From positions 35,426-74,386 of the forward strand of contig NZ_KK211076.1 in the NCBI RefSeq assembly GCF_000620125.1: DNA of 38,961 bases. The letters run 5' to 3'. Position 1 is the stretch's first letter; every line of letters begins with the position of its first letter. A model generated the notes under the pieces. The model searched no databases. It had not been told where the DNA came from and was given only the letters and a program-made list of their open reading frames with translations. A program made the translations under genes and the position numbers. Of the stretch, positions 1 to 38,961 are shown in pieces. The stretch comes from Clostridiisalibacter paucivorans DSM 22131 (GTDB lineage: Bacteria > Bacillota > Clostridia > Tissierellales > Clostridiisalibacteraceae).

Positions 1-100
1 GAAGTTTCAATTCCTCATAGGTAAAGTAATAACAGCCTGGTGCCTGGGGGAGAGTACCCTTTATATATTTGTTTCAATTCCTCATAGGTAAAGTAATAAC
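1..100 (-). CRISPR. Leader-proximal end of a type I-B CRISPR array (partial)
   Basis: Two identical 30-nt repeats lie at 4-33 and 71-100, separated by a 37-nt spacer (34-70). The array runs off the left edge of the window. Read on the minus strand each repeat ends in GAGGAATTGAAAC, whose last eight bases ATTGAAAC are the usual 5' handle of type I-B crRNAs. Transcription is therefore leftwards, in line with the cas operon, and 71-100 is the leader-proximal repeat, so 34-70 should be the newest spacer. The spacer matches nothing else I could see in the window. Confidence 0.95.
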
Positions 101-230
101 CCATTACAAAGCAGCATATATCCCAATATACAATTAATTCCAAATCATTTTTTCTCTTATACTTATATTCTATATAAAAAACAAAATTCCTTCTAATTGC
201 ACTAATTTTCTTTAATTCATCAATTTCAGT
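101..230 (-). promoter_or_regulatory. CRISPR leader
   Basis: This AT-rich, gene-free stretch lies between the cas operon terminator and the first repeat. On the minus strand it carries TTTGGAATT (136-144) and ATTGGGAT (120-127), the second ending 19 nt before the repeat. Both motifs recur in the same order upstream of the orphan repeat at 37,497. A TATAAG-like -10 lies further upstream. The position fits a leader that drives array transcription and guides spacer insertion; the promoter itself is inferred. Confidence 0.7.
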
Positions 231-295
231 CTAAAAAAATAAATGTCGTCGACCTCCAGGGGTTTTTACACTACTGGAGGTCGACGACATTTATT
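231..295 (-). terminator. cas operon terminator, 22-bp hairpin
   Basis: Arms 238-259 and 274-295 form a perfect 22-bp stem with a 14-nt loop. On the minus strand it is followed by a T-run (complement of 232-239). It begins directly after the cas2 stop codon, so it should end the cas transcript before the leader. The stem core GTCGTCGACC is unusually GC-rich for this region. It belongs to a family of three similar hairpins (see findings). Confidence 0.85.
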
Positions 296-559
296 TTATA
301 GAAAATTATCTTGTCCACCTTTCTTTATACCCATTATTTCTACTGATGAATATCTTGTTGTTCTAAATGAATAAATTATCACTGAATCTGCATCTTCATT
401 TATTATTTTACCTAATTCTAATTTTAATTTTACTAAATTGGCATCAGTTATTTCACCTTCAAATACTGAGTTTTGTACCCAATATAAATATTTCCTACAG
501 GTCTTTAATACCTTTGCTACTCTTTTTTGCTCTATATCATATACTAATATTACAAACAT
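296..559 (-). CDS. cas2: CRISPR-associated endonuclease Cas2
   Basis: This 87-residue protein is of normal Cas2 length. It opens with the ferredoxin-fold strand FVILVYDI carrying the conserved Asp8, followed by the usual helix and the motif YWVQNSVFEGE. Cas2 is the dimeric bridge of the Cas1-Cas2 integrase that inserts new spacers at the leader end of the array. It is the last gene of the operon, 9 nt after cas1, and its stop codon abuts the terminator hairpin. Confidence 0.97.
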   Translation of the reverse strand: MFVILVYDIEQKRVAKVLKTCRKYLYWVQNSVFEGEITDANLVKLKLELGKIINEDADSVIIYSFRTTRYSSVEIMGIKKGGQDNFL

Positions 560-568
560 TTTTGCCTC

Positions 569-1561
569 CTACCATCTAGATACAAAGGCACTATATGGCT
601 TTTCTCCCATGAGATGTTTTTCTATTTTGTATAGTTCCAACCTAATTAGTCTTCTATAAGATACATTTCTTCCTAATTGTCTATGTTTTATAGTAGCCCT
701 CATCCTATTATCAAATTCTTGAACAAATAATTTTCTTGCTCTGTCTTTTAATATTATCCCTTCCATATCTTCTTCAAAATCTTCCTTAGTTATCATTTTT
801 CTTCCCAATAATGAAAATATTAATCTATCTACTATTATAGGTTTAAATATCTCTGACACATCTAAATTCAAAGTAAATCTCCTAAAGTTAGTACTATGTA
901 GATATCCTATTCTAGGGTCTAAATGAGTTTTATAAATTTCTGATAAAACCATTACATACATCAGTGAATTTCCAAAACTTATCATTGAATTCAAATAATT
1001 TTCTGGTGGCCTTCTAGATCTTTTCTCAAATACAAAATCTTTATTGTTTATAATTCTATCGAAGCTTTTATAATATATATCCCTTATATTCCCTTCTATA
1101 CCCATCAACTGATTAGTAGTAAAACATTTAGGTATTTCCCTCGATAAATTTTTAATACTCTCATCTATGTCAGATATATCTTTCCCCCTATTAATATAAT
1201 ATTTCAGTACACTTAACATGTTTTTATAACTACCATTAACAAACTCCATTGCAATATTAAGCCTTTTATCTTCATTTAAATAATATTCTGATTGTTTTAA
1301 AATCATATATCCCGAATTTAAATGCTCCCTAGGATAATAAGAGCCCATATAATATCCATAATAATTAAAAAAATGTATAGTAATCTCTTTTTGAGATATA
1401 TAACTTAAAAATCTTTTATTTAAAGTAACTTCACCAAATATAAAAAAATCACTTACATCTTCTATAGGAATATATGACTTTTTATCATCTGTTTCAAAAA
1501 ATATAGTATTATCTTTTCTTTTTATTTCTCCATCATTAAATATATAAATAACTTTTTTCAT
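569..1561 (-). CDS. cas1: CRISPR-associated integrase/endonuclease Cas1 (type I-B)
   Basis: Cas1 is the catalytic subunit of the spacer integrase. The 330-residue protein has the family layout: an N-terminal beta domain and a helical C-terminal domain with the metal-binding triad Glu156 (LMGIEGN), His222 (YLHST) and Asp234 (LDVSEI). The 66- and 12-residue spacings between these match other Cas1 proteins. I chose the ATG at 1561 (MKKVIYIF) because a GGGAG ribosome site lies just upstream; the open frame extends nine codons further to 1588 but would overlap cas4. It lies between cas4 and cas2, as in most type I-B loci. Confidence 0.97.
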   Translation of the reverse strand: MKKVIYIFNDGEIKRKDNTIFFETDDKKSYIPIEDVSDFFIFGEVTLNKRFLSYISQKEITIHFFNYYGYYMGSYYPREHLNSGYMILKQSEYYLNEDKRLNIAMEFVNGSYKNMLSVLKYYINRGKDISDIDESIKNLSREIPKCFTTNQLMGIEGNIRDIYYKSFDRIINNKDFVFEKRSRRPPENYLNSMISFGNSLMYVMVLSEIYKTHLDPRIGYLHSTNFRRFTLNLDVSEIFKPIIVDRLIFSLLGRKMITKEDFEEDMEGIILKDRARKLFVQEFDNRMRATIKHRQLGRNVSYRRLIRLELYKIEKHLMGEKPYSAFVSRW

Positions 1562-1575
1562 GATATTCTCCCTTT

Positions 1576-2076
1576 CTAAGACCAACAAAATTCACTATAA
1601 GCACAGTTTTTACAATATTTTATTTTTTTAGGCTCTTGAGGGATATCTTTATAAATTATATTTAAAATTTTTTTCTCCATATCTTTAATATCTGCTATAA
1701 TTTTATCATTTAACTTTATCTCTATCCTCTTCCTCTCTTTAGGAAACATTAATATTCCTTCTCCATCTATTCCATATTCTTTAAGTTTATAAAGATAATA
1801 TGCTAATTGCATCTTTGCACTCTCTTGAAACTTTGAACTCTTTTTCACCTCTCCCACCAGTACATTCCCTTTATGTCTTTTAAGTACATCCACTTTTATA
1901 TTTCCTATTGAAATCTCTTTTTTCTCTCTTCCATAGGAATTTTCATGTATAAATCTTCCTATATCCATAAATTTATTATCTTGATCAGCTACAATCTTTC
2001 TAGACATCAACCAAACTTCTCTTTTACAAATGTAATAATACCACACTAAAGTCCCATTAATTTTTATGTCTTCCAC
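1576..2076 (-). CDS. cas4: CRISPR-associated exonuclease Cas4
   Basis: This is a RecB-like nuclease with an iron-sulphur cluster that trims prespacers and helps select PAM-containing ones for Cas1-Cas2. The four cluster cysteines are visible: Cys17 in YICKREVW and the C-terminal trio CKNCAYSEFC. The nuclease motif shows as VGEVKKSSK. The ribosome site AAGGTGG lies 7-8 nt before a GTG at 2076 and overlaps the cas3 stop codon, so I start there (166 residues). A GTG at 2088 is in frame but has no ribosome site. Confidence 0.93.
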   Translation of the reverse strand: MEDIKINGTLVWYYYICKREVWLMSRKIVADQDNKFMDIGRFIHENSYGREKKEISIGNIKVDVLKRHKGNVLVGEVKKSSKFQESAKMQLAYYLYKLKEYGIDGEGILMFPKERKRIEIKLNDKIIADIKDMEKKILNIIYKDIPQEPKKIKYCKNCAYSEFCWS

Positions 2077-2089
2077 ATTATCACCCACC

Positions 2090-4366
2090 TTAAAGGAATA
2101 TGGCTTCTTTTATATCTTCCCTAGTAAATCCTATATCATCTCTATATAATCTATCCTTGTCTTCTATGGGCATTCTTATAAACTTACTTTGGTCTATATC
2201 AAACTCTTTTAGATATCTATCTGGTATAGATATAATATACTGACTAATTTTAGGATATATTTTTAATAATTCTGCATATTTTTTCTTTCCTTTTTTCATT
2301 TGTCTTATTTCTTTATACCTTTCATATAAATCCACAGCTTCATTATCTGTTTCAAAGTATACATCTATATAATTTGGTCTATTTTTAATTATTGAAAAAC
2401 TTTTAATTATCTCAAAATCCAGTTTTTGTATCGCTTCTATAAGCTCTTCGCTTTTATCCTCAGTATTTTTCATCTTATATGCCTCTAAAAAATATTTTTC
2501 TATTAAATCAAGAAAATCAGATTCCTGTAAAGTTTTATCTTCTAATAAATCACTGGCAATCCTTAGAAGCATATTTCCATACACATATCTTCCATATAAT
2601 GAACCGTCTTCCTTTACCATTTTAGTAACTTTCACTATACCTGTTTCCTCATTATTTCTATTACATCTACCTGCCGACTGAATTATACTATCTATTGGAG
2701 CTAAATCCCTTATTACCACATCAAAATCTAAATCTACTCCTGCCTCTATCACCTGAGTAGAGATTACTATAGGATTTTCTTTAATTTTATCCCTTATAGT
2801 TTGTATTCTCTGTTGTCTTTCCTTTGGTATTATATTAGTTGACAAATACATTACTTTTCTATCTATACCTGTCAATTTATCATATATGTCTAATGACTGT
2901 CCTATAGTATTGCACACTATTAGATATGACTTATCTTCTAAATTATCTAAAAAATCATCGCAAAATCTATCGACAGATATAGATTCATTATCATAATATA
3001 ACTTCACTCTATTGAGCTTTTTAAAATACTTTTCATAATTATTTAGCAGTTCAACACTATCTTTTAAAATTATAGGCTTTGTAGCTGTCATAGTTATAAC
3101 TCTACAATCCAGTTCTTCACATACTTTGACTAATAAATCATCTATAAGATTCCAATACTCTATAGGTATAGTCTGTAACTCATCTAATATAATTACTGCA
3201 CCTTTTATACTATGATATTTTTTTAGCATTTTATTTCTAACACCCAAAAGACTTTCAAATAATTGTACAAAGGTAGTTATTATGATAAAACTATTCCATC
3301 CTTCTATCATTAGTTTCGATTGATCTACATCATAGTCTATATCTTCATTTTTATATTCAATATCTGATAAATTGTGATGCTTTATTATATATCTACTTAT
3401 ATTATTTATAAAATCTTCATCATGCAAATATAATTCTTTTATAACTTCATAATTTTGATCTATGATTGATGTAAATGGCAGTGCATATATAATTCTTCTA
3501 TTACCCAAATACTGTGATAATTTTTTTGCTGCATAAAACCCTGCTAATGTCTTTCCTGTCCCTGTAGGTGCTGTTATTGAAAATATCTTTTGGTCTATAT
3601 TCTCATTCATATTCTTTTGTATATTATCAAAAACTTCTCTCCTAAGTAATGATAAGCCATCAGTACTTGTGTATCTATTTATATATATATCAACTAATTC
3701 TTCATAGGATATATTCTTTATAGTACCCTCTAATGTATTAGATGCGCTCATTTTATCTGCATCTATGAGAGCAGAATATATAAGCTGATGCATATAAAAT
3801 ATTTTTGTTGTATCTATCATTTCCATATCCATTTTATGCTTTATTGTCCTCAAATTTTTAAGTATTTTTTCATATGGTCTTTCATCTATAAACTTTTCAA
3901 AATATATTGATATATCTATTTCTTGTAAATCTGTAGATATAATCTCTTTGTGTTGTTCCATATTATCAATTTGTCTATCTACTATATCTAAATTGATCTT
4001 AAGATTTGACATGTCTCTAGTACTTCTAGGCATATGTTTATCTATATCTGTTAAATTTCCATGGTGATGTAGGATAGCATTGTATATTATTAGGGAAAGA
4101 ATACTATCTTTCCCTAATATATTTTGACCTATATATGCACCAAATAATGCAGATATAAAACTATGGTCTGCTAGAGGATTCTTATCACTATCATGTAATC
4201 TTTCTTGAAAGTATGTTGTATATTTCCCAAAATCATGAGTTTTGCTTGTTATTTTTAGTGCATTCTTTATATTTTCATCTACCTCGCCCATATATACAAG
4301 TGATTTTTCAGTAACCTCTTTGATATGGTCTATCAAGTATTTGTCTGGATGCGATTTGAATCTCAT
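2090..4366 (-). CDS. cas3: CRISPR-associated helicase-nuclease Cas3 (HD-DExH fusion)
   Basis: Cas3 is recruited by target-bound Cascade, and unwinds and degrades the DNA strand. The 758-residue protein has an N-terminal HD nuclease domain (His44-Asp45 in THDFGKY, His67-68 region ADHSF, and the triple His100-102). The superfamily 2 helicase follows, with Walker A TAPTGTGKT (264-272), DExH-box DELQ (394-397) and motif VI QSAGRCNRN near residue 560. The start has an AAGGATG ribosome site. All key residues are present, so interference should work. It follows cas5 by 11 nt. Confidence 0.97.
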   Translation of the reverse strand: MRFKSHPDKYLIDHIKEVTEKSLVYMGEVDENIKNALKITSKTHDFGKYTTYFQERLHDSDKNPLADHSFISALFGAYIGQNILGKDSILSLIIYNAILHHHGNLTDIDKHMPRSTRDMSNLKINLDIVDRQIDNMEQHKEIISTDLQEIDISIYFEKFIDERPYEKILKNLRTIKHKMDMEMIDTTKIFYMHQLIYSALIDADKMSASNTLEGTIKNISYEELVDIYINRYTSTDGLSLLRREVFDNIQKNMNENIDQKIFSITAPTGTGKTLAGFYAAKKLSQYLGNRRIIYALPFTSIIDQNYEVIKELYLHDEDFINNISRYIIKHHNLSDIEYKNEDIDYDVDQSKLMIEGWNSFIIITTFVQLFESLLGVRNKMLKKYHSIKGAVIILDELQTIPIEYWNLIDDLLVKVCEELDCRVITMTATKPIILKDSVELLNNYEKYFKKLNRVKLYYDNESISVDRFCDDFLDNLEDKSYLIVCNTIGQSLDIYDKLTGIDRKVMYLSTNIIPKERQQRIQTIRDKIKENPIVISTQVIEAGVDLDFDVVIRDLAPIDSIIQSAGRCNRNNEETGIVKVTKMVKEDGSLYGRYVYGNMLLRIASDLLEDKTLQESDFLDLIEKYFLEAYKMKNTEDKSEELIEAIQKLDFEIIKSFSIIKNRPNYIDVYFETDNEAVDLYERYKEIRQMKKGKKKYAELLKIYPKISQYIISIPDRYLKEFDIDQSKFIRMPIEDKDRLYRDDIGFTREDIKEAIFL

Positions 4367-4377
4367 GTTATCATCCT

Positions 4378-5127
4378 TTACATAAATAATATATTTTCAT
4401 CTACTCCATTATATTGAACATTGATACAATTTCCCTTTAATTTCACTGGAATAGGATTTGTATTTTCATCAAATATATAATATTCAATAGCTTTAATATT
4501 TCTATTTCCTTCAAATTCTCTAGGCATTCTTTCCTTTACTATCATCACATTTTTAGTGTCAATTTTAGACAATACTATTCCCCTATCTTCAATTTTATTA
4601 AATGGTATAGGTGAAACTATATAGGTCATATCATCACCTTCATTTTCAGTTGCTATTGTTTTAGCAATATAGTCTATACCACAATTAAATGAGGCTGCTC
4701 CTAAAAATGGTGAATAATAATATTTTCTATTTTTTAACCTATACTCCAACTCATCCATAAAACTTTTGTCTTTATGACTTATATATATTCTATAACTTAG
4801 ATAGTCATTTACCGACAGTACCATCTCATAAGGTATTTGAGTATGATTTTCAGGAAACTCAAAATGTTTATTAGTAGTTATCTTCATATAATTTACACTC
4901 TGAAGTATCTTTCTTGTCTTTATATTTTTTCTTATTGCTATATCTACATTATCTGCTGAAAATTCATCATAATAACTATCTCTTTCCCTACCCATAATAG
5001 CCGCAACAATCCCCGATATAGTAGTCCTAGGAGGTATGCTATATGTTAGGGATGATGAATTAGTGTAAAACTTCCTAAAATGTCCAGCATATCCCCATAT
5101 ATCAAATATTAATATGTCTTTATTCAT
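4378..5127 (-). CDS. cas5: Cascade subunit Cas5 (type I-B, Cas5h-like)
   Basis: Cas5 caps the 5' handle end of the crRNA in the Cascade complex. The protein of about 249 residues begins with a RAMP-type strand (ILIFDIWGYAGHFRKF) and has the family's SLTYSIPPRTTISGIVAAIMG segment near residues 27-50. I start at the ATG at 5127, 7 nt after AAGGTG; a GTG at 5136 is in frame but lies inside that ribosome site. It sits between cas7 and cas3, with almost no gap to cas7. Confidence 0.93.
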   Translation of the reverse strand: MNKDILIFDIWGYAGHFRKFYTNSSSLTYSIPPRTTISGIVAAIMGRERDSYYDEFSADNVDIAIRKNIKTRKILQSVNYMKITTNKHFEFPENHTQIPYEMVLSVNDYLSYRIYISHKDKSFMDELEYRLKNRKYYYSPFLGAASFNCGIDYIAKTIATENEGDDMTYIVSPIPFNKIEDRGIVLSKIDTKNVMIVKERMPREFEGNRNIKAIEYYIFDENTNPIPVKLKGNCINVQYNGVDENILFM

Positions 5128-5132
5128 ATTTA

Positions 5133-6017
5133 TCACCTTATCTCTATTAGCCTAAAATCTCTAAATATTTCATTAAACTCCCCATTAGTTATTTTTAGAT
5201 TTCTGTCTTTAAAATAATATATTTTATCAACATTTTCTCTGTTTTCCTTTAAAAAATTTAATAAATCCCCCACATCCAATGCTACTTCACTTATATCTCT
5301 AGGGTTTTCAGTATTTTCTACTAATTTGATCATGGTTCTCATATCCCCTAATATAGTTTCTGGGTCTTTATACTGTACCCTTATATATAATCTGGGATAT
5401 TGTCCAACCTTACTCCTTGTAGCTAGTAGTGGTATAGACTTAACTACTGCTTTATCTAATTTATTTATATCCTCTTCCTGCAAATGAGTTTTTTCTGCTC
5501 TATTTCCGCTTACAACTCCTGAAAAAGCTATAAACGAATATTTAACTCTATAATCTCTACCCATGGCCCCTTGGGCATTTTTATCTCCTGTGGAAAAATG
5601 ACTAGTTATTGCAGACTCCATTAGTTCTACCTTATTTAAAGAATAGCCCCAATTAAATTGTACTGGTCCTGTAAAAGTCTTCGTTTCTTTTTGAATAGGT
5701 ATTGTAGCTCCAAAAAGTCGTACATCTATCAAATTATCTAATATATCTTCCTTTTCTATATCTTTTTTATTTAACTTAGTTTTTAACTTTTCTACTATCT
5801 TTTCAGGCTTTACACTTTTATCCTCTAATTTTGTTACAAATATTTCTTCTCCTTTAGATTGCAAATAATCTCTAATATATCTTTTCAATCTCAAATCCGA
5901 AACTAAATTTATGTCCCTTTCATAATCCATTCTTGGCCTGTTTTCCTCATCTGGATCACCATTTGGATTGGTCATTTTTGCATCATATAAAAATAATATT
6001 TCACTATTCTTTATCAT
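5133..6017 (-). CDS. cas7: Cascade backbone subunit Cas7 (type I-B, Csh2-like)
   Basis: Cas7 forms the helical backbone along the crRNA spacer. The 294-residue protein carries the Csh2 N-terminal motif YDAKMTNPNGDPDEENRPR (about residues 11-29), then the RRM-like core and the loop with HFSTGDKNAQGAMGRDYRVKYS. The length is normal for the family. The start overlaps the end of cas8b by about 14 nt and has an AAAGGAG ribosome site inside that gene, suggesting translational coupling. Confidence 0.96.
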   Translation of the reverse strand: MIKNSEILFLYDAKMTNPNGDPDEENRPRMDYERDINLVSDLRLKRYIRDYLQSKGEEIFVTKLEDKSVKPEKIVEKLKTKLNKKDIEKEDILDNLIDVRLFGATIPIQKETKTFTGPVQFNWGYSLNKVELMESAITSHFSTGDKNAQGAMGRDYRVKYSFIAFSGVVSGNRAEKTHLQEEDINKLDKAVVKSIPLLATRSKVGQYPRLYIRVQYKDPETILGDMRTMIKLVENTENPRDISEVALDVGDLLNFLKENRENVDKIYYFKDRNLKITNGEFNEIFRDFRLIEIR

Positions 6018-7911
6018 TATTCTTCTCCTTTCTAAACATCATTTTTGTTGTTCCATAGGAATAACCTGAAAGTATATAGTAAAGATTGTCATGCTTACTC
6101 AATTCCCATCTATTAATATGTTTGTCCAAAAGCATTTTATGGACAAAATATGTTTTTTCATTGTACTTTAGTATTTTATTTTGTCTAAGTTTATTTACTA
6201 TCTCACTGGATAATCTCTTTACTTTATTTATGTCCATACTATTAAAATTAATCTTATTTAATATAGGCTTTCTTCCTTCTCTATCCATATACTGCCTATT
6301 ACCCACTTGAGATACTAAATATCCCAAAATAAACATCGCAGTCTGCTGTTCTGAATACTTCATTTCATCTAGGTAATTTTTCATATCTTCATCAACATCT
6401 ATAATATTTATATTCATTCCCTCTCCCTCCTTCAAACAACCTATTTCTTCTAAAAGCCTTATGAGCATGTTAGATTGTACTATACTATTACTAAAAATAT
6501 TATTAGGCTTTATGTTAAATTGGTTTTCTTTATTAAAATAATGAATTTTAACCATGTCTATAAACCCTTTAATTAAAATATCTTTTTTAATTTCATTTCC
6601 TTTAAATACATCATTATATATAGACAACAATTTTCTAAAATCTGATACTTGTCCATCTTTTAATTTAACCGGTGTTAAATAATATATACTTTGTAATCCC
6701 AATGGCATATTAAATCTATCAGATATTAATTTCTTAAATTTTTGAGTTACATTAGTAGCAGCATTTATAATATGCGTAAATCTTGATGGATTTACATCTT
6801 TAATAAGCTTCTGTACTTTAACTGATTTTTGACTTATTCTATAAAATAATATATTTAAAAGATAATAATTGTTATCACCTAAGATCTCAAAGGATGTGTC
6901 TATTTCCCCTCCAATATTACTCAATCCTTCCACCTTTTTAGCTTGGTTAAAAGTATCTACTATCTTTGATGATAGTAAATCAATATTTTTTCTACTAAAT
7001 TCAGGATCAAATAAGAAATGAGGAATAATATAAACAGGCATACCCCCCAATCGAGTATTTAAATTATCCATTATGTATTGTTCTCCTGTCATTAAATAGG
7101 TCAAACAATTGCTGCAAATTTGCATATTTTTATAATAGTTCTTTTTGGAAAATTTAGAAGGGAAATTTATATTTGTGGTAGTATAAAATTTTAATTGTAG
7201 TTTACTAGTATCGGAAGTCACATCGGTAAGATTACTACATAGTGAACAATAGTCATCTTTTGCTTTATTATCTAGTCCATACCTTTCTTCTTTTATCGCA
7301 TTTTTATACTCTTCATTGTAACTTAAAGGTACTCCATCTATGGATATAAAATATAATGTTATAGACCTATTGTTTAATCCATATTTATCCTTTATGTAAT
7401 TGTCTATAATCTTAGATGTATATTTTGTAGTTTTTTTCACGTCTTTATTATTTTCATTAAAAATTGTATCCATGTCTTGAAAATCTTCAGATATCTTTTT
7501 AATATCCATTATATATCTATATCTATTTTTTGTACCTTTTTGTTCCCCCATATCATAATAAAAGTCATCTATTATTTTCTCTAATTTCTTACTTATATAA
7601 GGCAATTCCATATTTACTATATTTGGCAATGTTTGTGATATTAGATACTCATTCTTATTACCTGTCACATACCATTGGGGAGATGATGTCCCACTAGCTG
7701 TCCCTATCCAAAGTAGATCTTTTGCACTGTTTTTAGTAACTTCCCCATAATCATTTATTTCTATTTTATTTTTATTTGTGTCTATATTTATCTGAATTAT
7801 ATGTTTAGGATTTCCCTTCCTGTCTTCTAGCTGTATATCTTTTACTAGATTTATAAGGGCATTTTTATCATCATATACTGCCTTTCCCACCTGCAATATA
7901 CCTTCTTGCAT
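6004..7911 (-). CDS. cas8b: Cascade large subunit Cas8b (Csh1/TM1802-like)
   Basis: This is the type I-B large subunit, which recognises the PAM and starts DNA melting. The 635-residue protein has no simple catalytic motif, but fits the TM1802/Csh1 family in size, position and a two-part zinc ribbon: CSLC at residues 222-225 and CSNC at 266-269. Its ATG follows a perfect AGGAGG. It is the first gene of the operon. In most type I-B loci cas6 precedes it, but here the upstream 125 nt hold only a promoter, so the crRNA-processing enzyme must be encoded elsewhere. Confidence 0.9.
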   Translation of the reverse strand: MQEGILQVGKAVYDDKNALINLVKDIQLEDRKGNPKHIIQINIDTNKNKIEINDYGEVTKNSAKDLLWIGTASGTSSPQWYVTGNKNEYLISQTLPNIVNMELPYISKKLEKIIDDFYYDMGEQKGTKNRYRYIMDIKKISEDFQDMDTIFNENNKDVKKTTKYTSKIIDNYIKDKYGLNNRSITLYFISIDGVPLSYNEEYKNAIKEERYGLDNKAKDDYCSLCSNLTDVTSDTSKLQLKFYTTTNINFPSKFSKKNYYKNMQICSNCLTYLMTGEQYIMDNLNTRLGGMPVYIIPHFLFDPEFSRKNIDLLSSKIVDTFNQAKKVEGLSNIGGEIDTSFEILGDNNYYLLNILFYRISQKSVKVQKLIKDVNPSRFTHIINAATNVTQKFKKLISDRFNMPLGLQSIYYLTPVKLKDGQVSDFRKLLSIYNDVFKGNEIKKDILIKGFIDMVKIHYFNKENQFNIKPNNIFSNSIVQSNMLIRLLEEIGCLKEGEGMNINIIDVDEDMKNYLDEMKYSEQQTAMFILGYLVSQVGNRQYMDREGRKPILNKINFNSMDINKVKRLSSEIVNKLRQNKILKYNEKTYFVHKMLLDKHINRWELSKHDNLYYILSGYSYGTTKMMFRKEKNNDKE

Positions 7912-16225: not shown

Positions 16226-17299
16226 CTATTTATTAAATATGCAAATATTCCCCTCTGGTCTAAAACATTGATTACAAGAAATACACTTAGATTTTTTCAA
16301 ATCCCCCTTTAACCATCTATTGACTAGATTCGATTCTCTTATAAATGGCCTTGACATAGAAAACATATCAATATTGGAATTTCTCAATATATTTTCCATT
16401 CCCACTACAGAACGATTTCCTCCAACTAGTATTACAGGCACATCTACTACATCAGCAATCTCCTTTGCATATTGACTATGATAAGATTCGTCCTTAGATG
16501 TCTTTATTCCCATTCTAATGGCATATTTATCTCCTGTTACTCCGCCACTTATCTCTATTCCATCTATTCCCTTTAGACTCAATTGTCTACAAACATATTT
16601 GCTTTCCTCAAATGTTAATCCATTATCCATGAAATCTGAACAATTAATTTTTATTAATACAGGAAAGTCATTACCTACTTTTTCTCTAATATGTCCAAAT
16701 GCCTCTAAAATTATTCTGGCCCTGTTTTCTATAGAACCACCGTATTCATCTGTTCTTACATTATGATGGGGATTCAAAAATTGACTTAAAAGATATCCAT
16801 GTGCACTGTGGAACTGAACCCCATCAAACCCTGCCCTTTTTACTCTCAATGCTGCATCTCCATGGGCCTTCACTATGTATTCTATTTCTTTTTTTGTCAT
16901 TTCCTTTGGTATTACCCCTGTATTAATTTCTGGTACAGCAGAGGGCCCCAATATTGTTCTATCTTCAGTATTGTATCTAGTCTTTGATCCACCATAGGCA
17001 ATCTGCATTACTATTTTACAATTATTCTTATGTACCATATCTATCAATGCCCTATATTCATCTATATATGAATCATCACATATGCCCATCATTCCAGGAT
17101 TAGGACATTCTTCAGGCACTATATAGGAATATCCAGTAATTATCAGTCCCACTCCCCCTTTAGCTAAATTTCTATATACATTAAAAAGCTTATCTGTCAT
17201 CCTACCATCCTTAGCCATTCTTTCCCATGTTGCACTCCTTACAATTCTATTTTTTATATCCATATTACCTAACTTTGTAGAGTCAAATAAAGACTTCAT
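16226..17299 (-). CDS. NADH:flavin oxidoreductase (Old Yellow Enzyme family)
   Basis: This 357-residue protein is a TIM-barrel FMN enzyme. Features are the start LFDSTKLGNMDIKNRIVRSATW, the substrate-binding region FDGVQFHSAHGYLLSQFLNP, and NVRTDEYGGSIENRARI. These match the enoate/dienoyl reductase branch. The C-terminus carries a cysteine cluster, CISCNQCF and a Cys eight residues later, like the iron-sulphur site of the larger 2,4-dienoyl-CoA reductase and BaiCD group. The second FAD/NAD domains of those enzymes are absent. The real substrate is unknown. It has its own terminator. Confidence 0.9.
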   Translation of the reverse strand: MKSLFDSTKLGNMDIKNRIVRSATWERMAKDGRMTDKLFNVYRNLAKGGVGLIITGYSYIVPEECPNPGMMGICDDSYIDEYRALIDMVHKNNCKIVMQIAYGGSKTRYNTEDRTILGPSAVPEINTGVIPKEMTKKEIEYIVKAHGDAALRVKRAGFDGVQFHSAHGYLLSQFLNPHHNVRTDEYGGSIENRARIILEAFGHIREKVGNDFPVLIKINCSDFMDNGLTFEESKYVCRQLSLKGIDGIEISGGVTGDKYAIRMGIKTSKDESYHSQYAKEIADVVDVPVILVGGNRSVVGMENILRNSNIDMFSMSRPFIRESNLVNRWLKGDLKKSKCISCNQCFRPEGNICIFNK

Positions 17300-33298: not shown

Positions 33299-33338
33299 AA
33301 AACATATAAGATCTCCTTGTTAACCAATCCTATATGTT
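33299..33338 (-). terminator. Terminator overlapping the stop codon of the secreted partner gene
   Basis: On the minus strand AACATATA pairs with TATATGTT, followed by TTTTTAC. The stop codon of the gene at 33330 lies inside the stem. It ends the SLH/partner gene cluster. Confidence 0.65.
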
Positions 33339-34484
33339 AAAATTCAAATAAATATAATCAACTCTTTCTCCACCTACAACTACTACCGATTTTTCTGCTT
33401 TGTCTGTAAGTCCATTGTCATCTTTTACTTCTACCTCAAAAACAGTATCTTCACTAATTTTAGTATCAACCGATATTTTATTGTCCCAACTAGACTTATA
33501 CTCTCCATCTACATACCATTTCCTAGATACTATTTTTCCTGAAGAATAAGACATTGAACTGTCTAATGTAAACCTTTCTCTTTTTTCCACTTGTGATGGA
33601 CCTGCAAGTATAGCTTTTATTTCTTCATCATTACCTCCCATTTTGGCTCTTACCTGGTGCGTTGCATAGGAGGTTTGTCCATCTTCTGTTCTAATTTCTA
33701 GCTTGAATCCTTTTTGATTACCATCTACAGAAAAAGATGGATTCTTTTGATTGGAGAAAAACTGCCAATTGCTATTTTGCCAATGATACCATTTGTAGGA
33801 TTTTATTTTTGATAGTCTTGATGTAGACCTATCAACTAAATCTACTTTAAAAGGTAGAGATTCTACCTCTACCTCTCCATCTGTGACATCTTTTCTTTCA
33901 TATTTTATTTGAAATTCTGCTTGAGCCAAATCTTCTGGCTCTACTACAGTAAATTCCACAGGAACAAAGTACCAACCTTTTGAGTTTCCATGCGTACTTC
34001 TCCAAATTCCATTCTCTGACCAGTTGTCATAGCCATCGAAGCTGTCATCATCATATACTGCTATGAATATCCCCCACGTACCTGGTCGGTCTAGAGTTAT
34101 CTTTCTACCATCTATGGAAGATACTATCCTAGATGAAAAGTGACTTGCGTCACCTTCTCTCACCTGTAAATCATAGCCTTCTATCTCTGTACCATTAAAA
34201 CTCAAACTTGAACTATCCTTAATTGTTAATGTATCACCCACAACTGCTGTAAATTGTGAGTTCATCTCATCTAAGTTGGTTACAATAGGAAGGTTTCCAC
34301 TTCTCCCTGGAAAAACTCTTCCATCGGATAATTCCACTGAGTAAGCACAGTATGGTTTAGTTCCTCCTTCATGCTCTACAGTCCTCCAATCTCCTATTGG
34401 TTCCTTAGTCGCTAATACATTGCTAGGAAATATGGATAAACTTAATGTTATAATAAGTAAAAGACTTATTATTTTTCTATTCAT
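33330..34484 (-). CDS. Secreted protein with C-terminal PKD-like domain, partner of the SLH protein
   Basis: This 384-residue protein has a signal peptide (NRKIISLLLIITLSLSIFPSNVLA). I do not recognise the N-terminal part (about 25-180), which contains KPYCAYSVELSDGRVFPGRSG and the VVGDTLTIKDSSSLSFNGTEI strand-rich region. The C-terminal 100 residues look like a PKD/Ig-type domain (AILAGPSQVEKRERFTLDSSMSYSSGKIVSRKWYVDG). It lies 13 nt after the SLH gene and is probably co-transcribed. A truncated paralogue lies at 35642-36109. A structural or adhesive cell-surface role is inferred. Confidence 0.8.
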   Translation of the reverse strand: MNRKIISLLLIITLSLSIFPSNVLATKEPIGDWRTVEHEGGTKPYCAYSVELSDGRVFPGRSGNLPIVTNLDEMNSQFTAVVGDTLTIKDSSSLSFNGTEIEGYDLQVREGDASHFSSRIVSSIDGRKITLDRPGTWGIFIAVYDDDSFDGYDNWSENGIWRSTHGNSKGWYFVPVEFTVVEPEDLAQAEFQIKYERKDVTDGEVEVESLPFKVDLVDRSTSRLSKIKSYKWYHWQNSNWQFFSNQKNPSFSVDGNQKGFKLEIRTEDGQTSYATHQVRAKMGGNDEEIKAILAGPSQVEKRERFTLDSSMSYSSGKIVSRKWYVDGEYKSSWDNKISVDTKISEDTVFEVEVKDDNGLTDKAEKSVVVVGGERVDYIYLNFNI

Positions 34485-34496
34485 TTTAAATACCTC

Positions 34497-35609
34497 CTAC
34501 TCCTTATATTGAGGGTATTCTTCATAAAAATCTGTTACAAAATGTACTTTCCCCTTAACAAAATATTCTTTCTCTACTTCCCCTTTTTTAACAGTCACCT
34601 TGTATTCCATTTCCATACCTTCTTTTAAATGAAATTCCTTTTCATGTTCTATTGTTGTATAGTAGAAAGCTGGTAGATTATATAGGCTTCCTGTAGGAAT
34701 TACCGTAGGATGGTTTAATCTTCTGCTCTCTCTCCAAAAGGTTATATCATGTATTTTTCCTCTTGGTAATTGGCGTTGATTTAATTTAGGGTATGTTATA
34801 TGTTCAACTTTAAACTGATATTCATCTTTATCAATGTAATCTTCATTATTTTCCACTACTACAGAATGGATAATATAGTGTCCTGCGTTATCATTATCCT
34901 TCACTATTATTTGTGGTTCAATGAAATCTTCTTCAGATATTGGCTCTTCCATAATCTCTGGAATATCCCTTTCATCTGGCTCAATTAGCTTTACTAACAT
35001 AGTACTAGCTTCTGCTCTTGTAGCAGTTTTCTCTGGTGCAAATCTACCATTTGGTAGCCCTTTGACTATACCTGCTGCATATACTTGCAACACATACTCT
35101 CTATACTCTACTTTTATGTTCGTATAATCTGCTATGTTGTTTTTGTATGCTTTCCAATTCTCTGGCTCTTCTTCCATAGCCCTTGCTATCATTCTAGCCA
35201 TTTCTGCTCTGGTGATATCTTGGTCTATATCGGCAAATTCTCCTTCACATATATATCCTTCCTTCATAGCCTTTTCTATGTAGTTTTTTGCCCAGTGTCC
35301 ACCTTTATAAACCCCTGGGTCATCATGTAATGCAACTACTAAAAGTTTAGTGAACTCTGCCCTGTTTATTGCCTTATCTGGCTTAAATGTTCCGTCTGGA
35401 TATCCTGCTATTACTCCCTTATCCACTAATAGACCTATAAATTCCTTAGCCCAATGGTTTATCAAATCCGTAAATACTTTGCCTATATCCTTAACTACAT
35501 TAGTAACTCCATCCACTGCTTTATCTACCAATTGGTGGCTATCTGCATAAACCAATCCCATATTCATAACTAACATTACTATTAATATAATACTCACTAT
35601 TTTTTTCAT
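34497..35609 (-). CDS. S-layer homology (SLH) domain surface protein, copy 2
   Basis: This protein of 370 residues has a signal peptide and three SLH repeats: HWAKEFIGLLVDKGVIAGYPDGTFKPDKAINRAEFTK, HWAKNYIEKAMKEGYI...NITRAE-type, and YREYVLQVYAAGIVKGLPNGRFAPEKTATRAEA (to about residue 215). These anchor proteins to cell-wall polymers. The C-terminal 150 residues are an unrecognised strand-rich domain (YPKLNQRQ, AFYYTTIEHEKEFHLKEGMEMEYKVTVKKG). I start at the ATG at 35609, 9 nt after AGGAGG. Its SLH part is nearly identical to the copy at 36121-37251, while the C-terminal part has diverged. Confidence 0.88.
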   Translation of the reverse strand: MKKIVSIILIVMLVMNMGLVYADSHQLVDKAVDGVTNVVKDIGKVFTDLINHWAKEFIGLLVDKGVIAGYPDGTFKPDKAINRAEFTKLLVVALHDDPGVYKGGHWAKNYIEKAMKEGYICEGEFADIDQDITRAEMARMIARAMEEEPENWKAYKNNIADYTNIKVEYREYVLQVYAAGIVKGLPNGRFAPEKTATRAEASTMLVKLIEPDERDIPEIMEEPISEEDFIEPQIIVKDNDNAGHYIIHSVVVENNEDYIDKDEYQFKVEHITYPKLNQRQLPRGKIHDITFWRESRRLNHPTVIPTGSLYNLPAFYYTTIEHEKEFHLKEGMEMEYKVTVKKGEVEKEYFVKGKVHFVTDFYEEYPQYKE

Positions 35610-35641
35610 CTTTGCCAACCTCCTATATGTTTTATATAATT

Positions 35642-36109
35642 TTACTTAAAATAAAATAACCGTTTAAAATTAAACTTAGCTTTTCTATTTTGCAAAGGAT
35701 ATATTTCATTTTCTTCAAAATCCATGCCAGCAATAATATTGTCTCTAGATGAAAAGTGACTTGCGTCACCTTCTCTCACCTGTAAATCATAGCCTTCTAT
35801 CTCTGTACCATTAAAACTCAAACTTGAACTATCCTTAATTGTTAATGTATCACCCACAACTGCTGTAAATTGTGAGTTCATCTCATCTAAGTTGGTTACT
35901 ATAGGAGATTTTCCACTTTGCCCTGGAAAAACTCTTCCATTGGATAATTCTACTGAGTAAGCACAGTATGGTTTACCTCCACCAGTTGATGGATCATGCT
36001 TAACAAGTCTCCAATCATTTATAGGTTCTTTTGTTGCTCCAAAAACACTTCGAGGAATTATTGAAATTACTAATATTAGAACTAAAAAAACACTTATTAT
36101 TTTCTTCAT
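35642..36109 (-). pseudogene. Truncated paralogue of the secreted partner protein
   Basis: These 155 residues carry a signal peptide and the same N-terminal domain as the gene at 33330-34484 up to GDASHFSSR. After that the frame continues for 33 unrelated residues (DNIIAGMDFEENEIYPLQNR and on, basic end) and stops. The DNA at 35745-35899 is identical to 34129-34283 over 155 bp, then similarity ends abruptly. The PKD-like part is missing. The ribosome site GGAGGGG is intact, so it may still be expressed and secreted. It probably arose when the SLH/partner pair was duplicated and a deletion fused foreign sequence to the end. Confidence 0.75.
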
Positions 36110-36120
36110 TTCAACCCCTC

Positions 36121-37251
36121 CTACTCCTTGTATTGAGGATAATCTTTATAATAATCCATTATGAATTTCAGTTTTCCTTCTACAAAATATTCTTTTTCAA
36201 TATCTCCTTTTTTTACTGTCACTTTATATTTCATTTTCATACCTTCTTTTAAATGAAAATTTTTCTCATGTTCTACAGTGGTATAGAAAAAAGCTGGTAA
36301 ATCATATATACTACCTTTTGGAATCACAGTAGGATGGTTTAATCCTTTTCCACTCCTCCAAAATCTTCTATCCTTAATTTCTTTATTTGGAAATTGCCTT
36401 TGATTTAATTTTGGATATGTTATATTTTCAATTTTAAACTGGTAATCTTCTTCTACTCCTATATAGTCTTCATGATTTTTAACTACAATTGAGTGAATTA
36501 TATAGTTTTCTAAAATATCATTATTTTTTAATTCTAATTGTGGTTCAATGAAATCTTCTTCAGATACTGGCTCTTCCATAATCTCTGGAATATCCCTTTC
36601 ATCTGGCTCAATTAGCTTCACTAGCATAGTACTAGCTTCTGCCCTTGAAGCTGTTTTCTCTGGTGCAAATCTACCATTTGGTAGTCCCTTGACTATACCT
36701 GCTGCATATACTTGCAACACATACTCTCTATACTCTACTTTTATGTTCGTATAGTCAGCTATATTGTTTTTGTATGCTTTCCAATTCTCTGGCTCTTCTT
36801 CCATAGCCCTTGCTATCATACGAGCCATTTCTGCCCTAGTAATATTTTTGTCTACATCTTTAAATTCACCTTCAAGAATATATCCTTCTTGTATAGCCTT
36901 TTCTATGTAGTTCTTAGCCCAATGTCCACCTTCAAATACCTCTGAGTCATCATGTAATGCAACTACTAAAAGTTTAGTGAACTCTGCCCTGTTTATTGCC
37001 TTATCTGGCTTAAATGTGCCGTCTGGATATCCAGAAATTACATCTTTTTCTAGAAGTTTTTCTACCCATTGAGTTGACCAATGATCCTTCATATCGGAGA
37101 ATTTTTCTACTATGGAAACTATAGTCTCTCCCTCTCTTGACACTATCTCTCTTCTTTTTTCTTCTGTAGACAATGACTCTGCTATTGTCACTGAAGAAAA
37201 GATCATACAAAAAACTAAAATTAAAGAAATTATTCTTTTCAAATACCTCAT
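36121..37251 (-). CDS. S-layer homology (SLH) domain surface protein, copy 1
   Basis: This protein of about 376 residues has a signal peptide (YLKRIISLILVFCMIFSSVTIA) and three SLH repeats (HWSTQWVEKLLEKDVISGYPDGTFKPDK; HWAKNYIEKAIQEG; YREYVLQVYAAGIVKGLPNGRF). It ends in the same unrecognised C-terminal domain as copy 2, about 70% identical there and nearly identical in the SLH core. The start is uncertain. ATG 37251 has AAAGG immediately before it, TTG 37242 is better spaced, and the frame is open to ATG 37284 through a repeated segment. It lies 12 nt before the truncated partner gene. Confidence 0.85.
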   Translation of the reverse strand: MRYLKRIISLILVFCMIFSSVTIAESLSTEEKRREIVSREGETIVSIVEKFSDMKDHWSTQWVEKLLEKDVISGYPDGTFKPDKAINRAEFTKLLVVALHDDSEVFEGGHWAKNYIEKAIQEGYILEGEFKDVDKNITRAEMARMIARAMEEEPENWKAYKNNIADYTNIKVEYREYVLQVYAAGIVKGLPNGRFAPEKTASRAEASTMLVKLIEPDERDIPEIMEEPVSEEDFIEPQLELKNNDILENYIIHSIVVKNHEDYIGVEEDYQFKIENITYPKLNQRQFPNKEIKDRRFWRSGKGLNHPTVIPKGSIYDLPAFFYTTVEHEKNFHLKEGMKMKYKVTVKKGDIEKEYFVEGKLKFIMDYYKDYPQYKE

Positions 37252-37262
37252 CCTTTCATTTT

Positions 37263-37367
37263 TTTGTTCCAAATCCTCATACATTCTTTCTATACCTACT
37301 CATTTAATTCCTTTATTCCATAGTTTATGCTCTTGTTCCAAATCCTCATATATTCTTTTTATACCGT
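37263..37367 (-). repeat. 69-bp-period direct repeat with coding character
   Basis: A segment of about 33 bp occurs at 37263-37297 and again 69 nt away at 37332-37366 with few differences. On the minus strand both copies read in the same frame as RIYEDLEQEHK and RMYEDLEQKNE, exactly 23 codons apart, with a TGA between. This looks like the remains of a protein with 23-residue repeats that now forms the leader region of the SLH gene. Confidence 0.6.
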
Positions 37368-37403
37368 GGTAGTCAGTTATTTAGTCATTATTTATGTGGA
37401 ATA

Positions 37404-37496
37404 TTGGTTTTTTGCTCTTTTATTTGCTATATTATTAAGTAAGGATATTTGGAATTGGTGTTTTTTGGACATTGGGATGTTTACTTCATCACAATG
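37404..37496 (+). promoter_or_regulatory. Leader-like sequence and putative promoter of the one-spacer CRISPR unit
   Basis: TTTGGAATT (37448-37456) and ATTGGGAT (37471-37478) occur in the same order and at nearly the same distance from the repeat (18 versus 19 nt) as in the main array's leader. Upstream are TTGGTT (37404-37409) and TATATT (37428-37433) with 18-nt spacing, a plausible promoter pointing into the repeat. Confidence 0.5.
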
Positions 37497-37593
37497 GTTT
37501 ATACTTTACCTATGAGGAATTGAAACTTGACTAGAAAGGAAGAAAAGAAAAGCCAAGAAATCAGTTTATACTTTGCCTATTATTGCTTTGTCT
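37497..37593 (+). CRISPR. Orphan one-spacer CRISPR unit
   Basis: The 30-nt repeat at 37497-37526 matches the main array's repeat (minus-strand reading) at 28 of 30 positions, the two changes lying together at positions 4-5. It is followed by exactly 37 nt of spacer (37527-37563, purine-rich) and a degenerate second repeat (37564-37593). The second repeat keeps GTTTATACTTT, CCTAT and little else. The degenerate end repeat marks the distal end, so transcription runs rightwards. The mature 3' repeat lacks the ATTGAAAC handle, so only the first handle can form. Confidence 0.8.
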
Positions 37594-37630
37594 TCATTTT
37601 ATATAAGTAACATATCAATCTTAAAAAAAT

Positions 37631-37677
37631 AAAAAATAGAGAGATTAACATGTTACATGTTAATCTCTCTATTTTTT
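37631..37677 (+). terminator. 22-bp hairpin terminator after the one-spacer CRISPR unit
   Basis: Arms 37631-37652 and 37656-37677 are perfectly complementary with a TTA loop, flanked by A6 and T6, so it works in both directions. It lies 37 nt after the degenerate repeat. The only other gene reading towards it is the small membrane ORF at 37798, which ends 120 nt away. Confidence 0.85.
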
Positions 37678-37797
37678 CTCAATAACAGTACCATAAACTA
37701 TAGATTAGGGCATTAATTATAAAGGTCTTTTTAACATATAATTTTAAAGCATTTGTATGCTTTTATAGTTAATTAATGACATGTCTGATTATTGTTG

Positions 37798-38040
37798 CTA
37801 TACACTTCTTTTTACTAATATAATTAGCGTTATATAACTAATTATTGAAATTATTGAAGTTAAGTTACTAAAAACAATATTAGATTTTAGCATTACAAAT
37901 TTATATTCTAATAACATTTTTGACAGAAAAAAAATACCACAAATGAAAAAAACACCAATTTCCACCTTATACTTATTTTGTTTTTTATAAAGTATGAAAC
38001 TAAGATAAAAATATAAAGCAGAAATGATTAAACTATACAT
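37798..38040 (-). CDS. Small membrane protein of unknown function
   Basis: I do not recognise this 80-residue protein. It has three hydrophobic segments (YSLIISALYFYLSFILY, IGVFFICGIFFLSKMLL, LTSIISIISYITLIILV) with a short basic loop after the first (KKQNKYK). A plausible ribosome site, AAGGCGGTG, precedes the ATG. The 37,681-37,797 stretch after it holds nothing I can identify. It lies between the orphan CRISPR unit and the transposase fragment. Confidence 0.55.
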   Translation of the reverse strand: MYSLIISALYFYLSFILYKKQNKYKVEIGVFFICGIFFLSKMLLEYKFVMLKSNIVFSNLTSIISIISYITLIILVKRSV

Positions 38041-38356
38041 TAAAACACCGCCTTAAAAAATCATTTTTTACATTATCTTTTATTTGGTGGTTACTTGTTG
38101 CTATTTTCATAGCTAATTGATATTATGGTTATACAAAATATAAGTATAAAGAGAATGTTCTCTCCTGCAACCTCTTGATGATAAGGGAATTTTGAGAGGT
38201 GGAATATCGTATATTCAAATCCCTTTATCTACCATATTATTATATCATTTGCTATCAACACAAACAATATTGGCTTCATTTTAGAAAAAAGTAGGTTGTT
38301 TTATGTTTGATGTAAAAGATAAGGATTAAATTATTTATAAAAAAATATACCCACTA
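38041..38356. other. Gap without recognised gene
   Basis: This 316-nt AT-rich gap has no ORF with a ribosome site. A weak inverted repeat ACCTCT/AGAGGT lies near 38169-38200. The sequence might contain the promoter of the small membrane gene to its left, but no clear hexamers stand out. Confidence 0.4.
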
Positions 38357-38596
38357 ATGATTAGAGTATTATACTTATTGATGTTTTCTGCAATATATGC
38401 TTCGGCAATAAATGCAGAAAAATATTTTAAAATAATTGCAATTATTTTGCCAATTATACTGGCAATTGGTTTTTTCTTAGGGGGGGGGATAGAAGAAATT
38501 TATATTAAAAATAGAAAAGTACTTGGTTATGTAAGCTATGTCTTAGGCGTTATTATTCCAACTCTCTTTCTCTATATGTTATATATTGTATCTTAA
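38357..38596 (+). CDS. Possible small membrane protein with a G9 tract
   Basis: The frame of 79 residues is strongly hydrophobic, with two or three membrane segments (VLYLLMFSAIYASAI, IIAIILPIILAIGFFLGGG, YVSYVLGVIIPTLFLYMLYIV). I do not recognise it. No ribosome site precedes the ATG, which weakens the call. Nine consecutive G at 38480-38488 encode the Gly triplet; a change in this tract would shift the frame. It may be a remnant, or part of a frame that starts elsewhere. Confidence 0.4.
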   Translation: MIRVLYLLMFSAIYASAINAEKYFKIIAIILPIILAIGFFLGGGIEEIYIKNRKVLGYVSYVLGVIIPTLFLYMLYIVS

Positions 38597-38639
38597 ACTT
38601 ACACACACAAATGTGGTAAAAATATAAAATTAATAAGAA

Positions 38640-38700
38640 CTCCCCCCTGTGTTAGAATAGTTGTCATATAGATGTTATAATAATTGTGAGTAAAGAAAGG
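38640..38700 (+). mobile_element. Possible left end of an insertion sequence
   Basis: The stretch ending just before the transposase fragment contains CTCCCCCCTGTGTTAGAATAG (38641-38661 region). A sequence beginning TGTGTTAGAATAG is plausible as the terminal repeat of an IS3-type element. The other end lies outside the window, so no inverted repeat can be confirmed. Confidence 0.35.
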
Positions 38701-38712
38701 ATGACAATCTAT

Positions 38713-38961
38713 ATGAAAAATAAGAGCTATAATAAAGAATACATTGAAGATATATTAAGGCAAATATCTCCGCCAATAAATAAAAAAGTATCACAGGTAT
38801 CTAAGGAAACAGGAGTATCTACAAACACTATCTATGGGTGGAAGAGAAAAGCTAGAATAGAAGGCAAATTAATACCCAATAGTAATCCTAATCGACTTAA
38901 GAGATGGAGAAAAGAAGATAAACTTAAAATTGTAATGGAAACATTTACAATGAATGAAGAA
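38713..38961 (+). CDS. Transposase, N-terminal part (cut by window edge)
   Basis: The 83 visible residues include a helix-turn-helix (VSQVSKETGVSTNTIYGWKRKARIEGK) followed by a basic segment (NPNRLKRWRKEDKLKIVMET). This is the DNA-binding start of an IS3-like orfA or a related HTH transposase. The ATG follows AAAGGATG at 9 nt; an ATG at 38701 is in frame but lies at the ribosome site. The catalytic part is beyond the window. Confidence 0.8.
   Translation, partial: MKNKSYNKEYIEDILRQISPPINKKVSQVSKETGVSTNTIYGWKRKARIEGKLIPNSNPNRLKRWRKEDKLKIVMETFTMNEE

Follow-up and report, generated by a model that had tools for sequence, protein, structure and literature searches.

Among the described systems closest to a CRISPR unit with a single spacer are minimal type I-B arrays served in trans by a distant cas locus, the CreA guide of CRISPR-regulated toxin-antitoxin pairs (CreTA) and the cas-regulating crRNA-like RNA CreR; paired divergent arrays occur in Sulfolobus. 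According to the available part of PMC12737573, CreA and CreR act on promoters, and the available part of PMC9458426 describes a first CreA repeat that is more degenerate than the second. Concerning genomes with many arrays, the accessible sections of PMC12814883 report that arrays farther from cas are shorter in most types, I-B included, cite work in which leaderless arrays tend to be shorter, and give similar update rates at any distance to cas for arrays with identical repeats. The accessible portion of PMC4390879 describes no case of a divergent or shared-leader array pair.

The locus presented here lies in a stretch of 38,961 nt (the window), which corresponds to C81:35426-74386 of a 3.25-Mb genome in 85 contigs and whose end is the contig end. 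An initial annotation had described its plus-strand unit as a stand-alone, complete small CRISPR RNA gene. The unit is one half of a divergent, head-to-head pair of one-spacer arrays with two different repeats, here called type 1 (plus strand) and type 2 (minus strand). The features are as follows.

1-292, minus strand: start of the main array with its leader and leader hairpin (hairpin at about 244-292)
296-7911, minus strand: cas8b(TM1802)-cas7-cas5-cas3-cas4-cas1-cas2 operon, with the sole cas1 and PF05107 cas7 found in the genome
36121-37284, minus strand: gene for an S-layer homology (SLH) domain protein, directly behind the minus array, its called start inside R2
37266-37295, minus strand: type-2 repeat R2, 1 mismatch to the C54 repeat
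37296-37334, minus strand: spacer of 39 nt, no supported target
37335-37364, minus strand: type-2 repeat R1, 3 mismatches to the C54 repeat
37365-37437, minus strand: retained part of a type-2 leader, from BLAST to the C54 leader and array
37432-37437, no strand: junction of two truncated leaders, from the ends of plus- and minus-leader homology
37432-37496, plus strand: retained leader-proximal part of a type-1 leader, from block comparison with seven leaders
37497-37526, plus strand: type-1 repeat R1, 30/30 to five other places of the genome and 28/30 to the main array
37527-37563, plus strand: spacer of 37 nt, no supported target
37564-37593, plus strand: degenerate terminal repeat with the handle lost, 19/30 (11 mismatches in 30), its first 11 bases identical
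37631-37677, no strand: inverted repeat, probable two-way terminator, in a trailer common with C26 and partly with C65

Genome searches returned one cas1, one cas7 (PF05107) and, with the TIGR01877 profile, one cas6; the PF10040 profile gave no match for cas6. The cas6 gene is located at C81:30864-31451(-), outside the window and the cas operon, past the far end of the main array. A cas8b-type effector, cas6 and the adaptation genes, by which a type I-B system is recognised, are all present in the genome. The plus unit is 37 kb away from the end of cas2 and the main array, and 29.6 kb from the end of cas8b. Since the searched cas1, cas7 and cas6 occur once each and the leader hairpin described below occurs ten times, a single type I-B system seems to serve many arrays.

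Most components that had been proposed for the plus unit were recovered. Its repeat differs from the main-array repeats at 4-33 and 71-100 by 2 mismatches in 30, in agreement with the reported 28/30 identity (no match in 100 shuffles), and is identical over 30/30 to two repeats of the C85 array and to one each at the ends of C26, C56 and C65. Given these identities, R1 is a normal repeat of a sister array family in this genome and no degenerate copy of the main repeat. Rfam matched it to CRISPR-DR2 with 38.6 bits, reported on the opposite strand. The 37-nt spacer follows directly (37527-37563), and so does the degenerate end repeat, with 11 mismatches over 37564-37593; 3'-degenerate terminal repeats with 3 to 10 mismatches also stand at five other array ends of the genome. 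Both leader motifs, TTTGGAATT at 37448 and ATTGGGAT at 37471, stand in the same order as in the main leader, the former being confined within the window to the main leader and the plus unit, the latter occurring at five further window places. As had been noted, the unit shows a single ATTGAAAC handle. Also present is the inverted repeat at 37631-37677, which folds into a long hairpin on the plus strand, although a terminator was called on the minus strand only; it is a probable two-way terminator. Trailer and terminator together are 87% identical to C26, and 81% over 70 nt to C65. A promoter scan of 37250-37800 gave 2 sites against 3.7 expected, which is chance level. Of the features of type I-B arrays that were checked, the unit has repeat identity with the arrays of its genome and a leader before the first repeat, of only about 65 nt.

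What did not hold is the isolation of the unit. Just upstream, the minus strand holds another one-spacer array at 37266-37437, which has a repeat and a leader of its own, and a direct repeat at 37255-37365 resolves into its two 30-nt repeats, 39 nt apart. A stretch from the start of contig C54, which read outward contains a hairpin, a leader, and then repeat, spacer and repeat of type 2, aligned to the window with 139/176 identities over 37269-37437 (E-value = 1e-32). It is because of this match that the minus-strand repeats are identified as an array, and together with their leader they contradict the label "stand-alone". Allowing up to 3 mismatches, the type-2 repeat has four copies in the genome, at C54, at the end of C56 and twice in the window, a count that leaves out the last, cut-off copy at the end of C54; it was found in 0 of 198 other genomes of the order searched. 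Treating the minus repeats as degenerate type-1 repeats was tried and rejected, with 9 mismatches to the C80 form and 10 to the plus repeat, and 2 places against 0.8 expected, which is not significant. At the start of C54 (L114), the coding end of a transposase-like zinc-finger protein, which we take to be TnpB-like, and a possible structured RNA lie directly upstream of the type-2 leader hairpin.

For the plus leader, identities to seven other leaders were determined block by block before the first repeat, with shuffled versions of this leader as the control. Block -1 to -35 of the plus leader has an identity of 0.56-0.83, exceeding the shuffle maximum of 0.65 for five of the seven, and block -36 to -65 an identity of 0.53-0.74, exceeding the maximum of 0.69 for two of the seven (C84a and C2). 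In blocks -66 to -100 and -101 to -135 no leader of the seven stands above the shuffle maximum, and the main leader keeps 0.68-0.83 with the other leaders in these same blocks. No block of the plus leader reaches the shuffle maximum against the main leader, and C84a and C2 are therefore its closest counterparts; the stretch 37428-37527 (leader and repeat) is 88% identical to C84 (E-value = 1.3e-27). The homology of the plus leader to other leaders extends over about 65 nt at most, and the nucleotides farther upstream belong to the leader of the minus array. The minus-leader homology starts at 37437, and the two leaders meet without a gap at about 37432-37437. The plus promoter would be located within the proximal leader, because several related leaders show a TTGACA-like and TAATAT-like pair nearby. 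A search of a collection of genome contigs with the leader pattern gave no match.

Complete leaders of this genome carry one more element, a palindromic hairpin whose stem, judged by eye, has about 15 bp and encloses a loop of 14 nt. In each of the seven type-1 leaders measured, among them that of the zero-spacer array on C3, the hairpin stops 142-144 nt short of the first repeat; in the type-2 leader of C54 this distance is 118 nt. The hairpin is absent from the divergent pair, the only GTCGAC sites of the window being those at 248 and 280. Its ten copies in the genome are located on C2, C3, C53, C54, C65, C80, C81, C84 (two) and C85, those of C53 and C65 running off their contigs before any repeat. 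Across the order it was found in 14 of 199 genomes, the present one included. Sixteen loci outside this genome were considered (one per genome for 13 genomes and three from named genomes, two of these three repeating sequences already in the set), and in 13 of them a tandem array stands within 400 nt; the other three are a locus that runs off its contig after one repeat (L082), one with a single degenerate repeat (L089) and one with no array (L081). As an observation in its own right, I-B-like arrays in several families (L082-L093, L125) are preceded by this conserved hairpin, whose loop is conserved too, at a distance of about 100-145 nt from the first repeat. No CRISPR-array paper was among the literature matches listed for pieces of the hairpin sequence, and Rfam at gathering thresholds returned no match to the hairpin in the window.

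Taken together, the locus is likely a rearranged and shrunken divergent pair of one-spacer arrays, which depends on one type I-B cas locus and perhaps yields one crRNA from each side. Both leader-proximal segments are homologous to longer leaders elsewhere in the genome and each is cut short. The DNA between two longer divergent arrays, both leader hairpins among it, would have been deleted, and recombination between repeats would have reduced each array to one spacer. Transcription would start in the conserved leader-proximal segment, Cas6 would cut the intact repeat and leave a handle of the ATTGAAAC type, the plus RNA would end at the inverted-repeat terminator, and its crRNA would then be loaded onto the cas8b Cascade in the same way as the final crRNA from any other array of this genome. 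Deprived of the hairpin and the upstream leader, acquisition of new spacers would be weak or absent, so that loss of function, rather than selection for the guide, would keep the spacer content fixed.

The other arrays of the genome bear on this reading. Multi-unit arrays start on C81, C85, C80, C84 (two) and C2; several of them are estimated at about 18 to 42 repeats by arithmetic from their visible ends, the interiors being masked, and the readable C2 array has 20 intact repeats and a variant twenty-first. At the other extreme, an array at C3:140583-140648(-) (L062) has zero spacers, with a complete leader and hairpin (kept with two mismatches), after which come one degenerate repeat and a hairpin resembling a terminator. 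Locus L089 of another genome is similar, its complete leader and hairpin being followed by its one degenerate repeat, and these two loci show that arrays in this group shrink to nothing. The initial annotation had left a choice between a remnant array and a fixed guide for regulation or addiction. The remnant-array reading is supported, because the arrays of the genome range from several tens of units to zero spacers and the plus leader is truncated; for the other no positive evidence emerged. Several points count against a shrunken pair. The plus R1 is perfect and the minus repeats nearly so, unlike old decay; the C3 array lost all its spacers yet kept its hairpin, showing that hairpin loss is not needed for shrinkage; the similar update rates of identical-repeat arrays, as far as the accessible sections of PMC12814883 go, also weigh against it, as do the chance-level promoter scan and the similarity of block -36 to -65 to only two of the seven leaders. 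An unfused divergent ancestor of the pair was not found.

The same perfect R1, the conserved leader-proximal segment and the presence of cas8b-7-5-3-4-1-2 and cas6 could be claimed for a working minimal defence array, newly seeded or reset, which still acquires spacers against an unsampled phage or plasmid; the leader length given in the accessible portion of PMC4390879 points the same way, about that much being kept here. We consider this unlikely, since the leader has lost everything beyond about -65, the hairpin included, a single spacer stands on each side of a rearranged junction, and no convincing protospacer was found.

The search for targets also bears on a second alternative, that of a fixed regulatory guide, in which a crRNA-like RNA steers Cascade without cutting to the promoter of cas (as CreR) or of a toxin (as CreA). 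One spacer, an intact handle and a terminator-like hairpin would suit such a guide, and the truncated leader may prevent replacement of its spacer. Against the cas promoter, the longest seed run of the plus spacer is 5 nt, equalled by 40.5% of shuffles, and the minus spacer reaches 8/12, with 92% of shuffles as good; a CreR reading was rejected on these results, both spacers performing no better than shuffled ones. The flanks tested (upstream and downstream for the plus spacer, downstream for the minus spacer) gave matches at shuffle level, and a CreA reading was set aside for want of a match there. The seed of the minus spacer does match its own leader at 10/12 (P = 0.05), which would favour the guide, but six equal matches occur elsewhere in the window. 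In the host genome, seeds of the plus spacer with up to 2 mismatches in 15 were found at 19 non-self places against 13 for the reversed control, a level close to that control; over the full spacer, 18 of these places agree at 17 to 26 positions of 37, and the remaining one, on C65, does not appear in the ten best full-spacer matches listed. Within the window, the longest exact seed match of the plus spacer (9 nt, at 16320) falls in an open reading frame. For the minus spacer, the first 25 nt matched only themselves in the host genome when up to 3 mismatches were allowed, and the best non-self matches in the window and 54 partly overlapping stretches of the own genome are 26/37 for the plus spacer and 25/39 for the minus spacer. 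Concerning the repeats, R1 of the minus array is more diverged than R2, in the direction of CreA, and the perfect R1 of the plus unit runs opposite to the CreA pattern. On balance, a fixed regulatory guide is very improbable.

The phage, plasmid and viral-contig collections may leave out records very near the genome of the window, so that targets inside close relatives could be missed. For the plus spacer they gave 66 phage records at E-values up to 10 and 64 plasmid records, the best among the 20 listed having an E-value of 0.1 in each case. Seven Enterococcus phage records cover the whole plus spacer at 81.6% (E-value = 2) and were taken as chance. The minus spacer gave 78 phage records, of which the 8 listed all have an E-value of 7. 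Six exact scans of viral contigs with 19-24 nt pieces of both spacers returned one match, to a purine-rich 21-nt core, which over the whole spacer amounts to 25/37 with a mismatched seed and was likewise taken as chance. These comparisons thus support no target for either spacer, be it in the cas promoter, in the flanks, in the host genome or in the phage and viral collections, and none in plasmids for the plus spacer.

Downstream of the minus array, the start called for the SLH gene falls inside R2. Translation probably begins 33 or 42 nt beyond that position, at one of two likely start codons, which the end of R2 precedes by 14 or 23 nt. The scan of 37250-37800 revealed no terminator between R2 and the gene, and a related SLH gene follows a type-2 repeat on C56. 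These distances would fit a minus unit that serves as promoter and 5' leader of the SLH gene, with Cas6 cuts in the repeat setting the 5' end of the mRNA. On C56, however, about 370 nt and a gene of 203 aa intervene, so the direct contact seen in the window may be a local deletion, and such a role for the unit is highly improbable. Hardly more credit can be given to a two-way guide cassette, in which the fused leaders would lack the uptake part and keep their promoters, two fixed crRNAs with different repeats would be made, and the minus unit would also be the Cas6-cut 5' leader of the surface-protein gene. At the end of C56 (L120), promoter-like and terminator-like stretches are visible by eye in the roughly 370 nt between the type-2 repeat and the 203-aa gene; this stretch could encode a structured RNA, and had no Rfam match at gathering thresholds.

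The pair stands in a locus that is a mosaic of duplicated segments, because the trailer is common with C26, the gene downstream with C29, and the minus half with C54 and C56. An assembly artefact joining known contigs is unlikely, as the divergence from the paralogous copies amounts to about 13% for one half and 21% for the other. The C26 copy of the trailer adjoins a BhlA-type holin gene and a sigma-factor gene. About 0.6 kb past the terminator, a small gene resembling membrane-protein genes (38283-38598, plus strand), considered as a possible toxin gene beside the guide, has a paralogue on C29 that is 89% identical and open, the window copy having a stop near its start; the C29 paralogue had no match in PHROGs or Pfam. 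On the other side of the pair, at 33330-37284(-), the SLH-domain gene and a following gene for a secreted-looking protein are duplicated in tandem, the two copies of the latter measuring 155 aa and 384 aa. An element at 38640-38961, probably an insertion-sequence end, recurs on eight other contigs in matches of 58-62 nt; seven or more of these lie within about 350 nt of a contig end.

Single repeats also occur outside arrays, at C29:4030-4059 (L038) and C65:5351-5380 (L033). The former is followed almost directly by a terminator-like hairpin, and the latter lies upstream of the C65 copy of the plus unit's terminator region. Contig C65 (7.3 kb) is plasmid-like, with ParA-like, resolvase and D12 methylase genes, and as it starts in an array end and ends at the leader hairpin, it could represent a circular element that carries an array of its own. 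With 37420-37680 as query, 17 of 59 other genomes, all from other families, matched at E-values up to 0.001; among the matches listed nearly all begin in or beside the repeat, G029 matching the terminator region only.

In a type I-B genome with many arrays, these evidently spread, become truncated or fused and may be reduced to a single spacer or none, with one cas locus, as far as the searches showed, serving them all. The natural truncation of a leader, set against seven full leaders with hairpins, also offers a direct test of which leader parts are needed for transcription and which for spacer uptake.

Compared with the described systems, the plus unit resembles most plainly a minimal type I-B array served in trans by a distant cas locus, having the repeat, spacer length, handle, leader-proximal segment and degenerate terminal repeat of the other arrays in its genome; it differs in its leader of about 65 nt, the missing hairpin, the single spacer and the divergent partner with another repeat. 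With CreA it shares one guide, a Cas6-type repeat and a type I-B host system, but the mismatches of the plus unit (R1 0, R2 11) are the reverse of the CreA pattern given in the available part of PMC9458426, those of the minus array (R1 3, R2 1) follow it weakly, and no partly complementary neighbouring promoter was found in the tested flanks. With CreR it has in common a single guide outside the long arrays, whereas neither spacer matches the cas promoter beyond chance. Finally, like the multi-array genomes described in the accessible sections of PMC12814883, this genome has several arrays per cas locus, the distant ones being shorter; in contrast to those, two one-spacer arrays with different repeats meet here through fused, truncated leaders.
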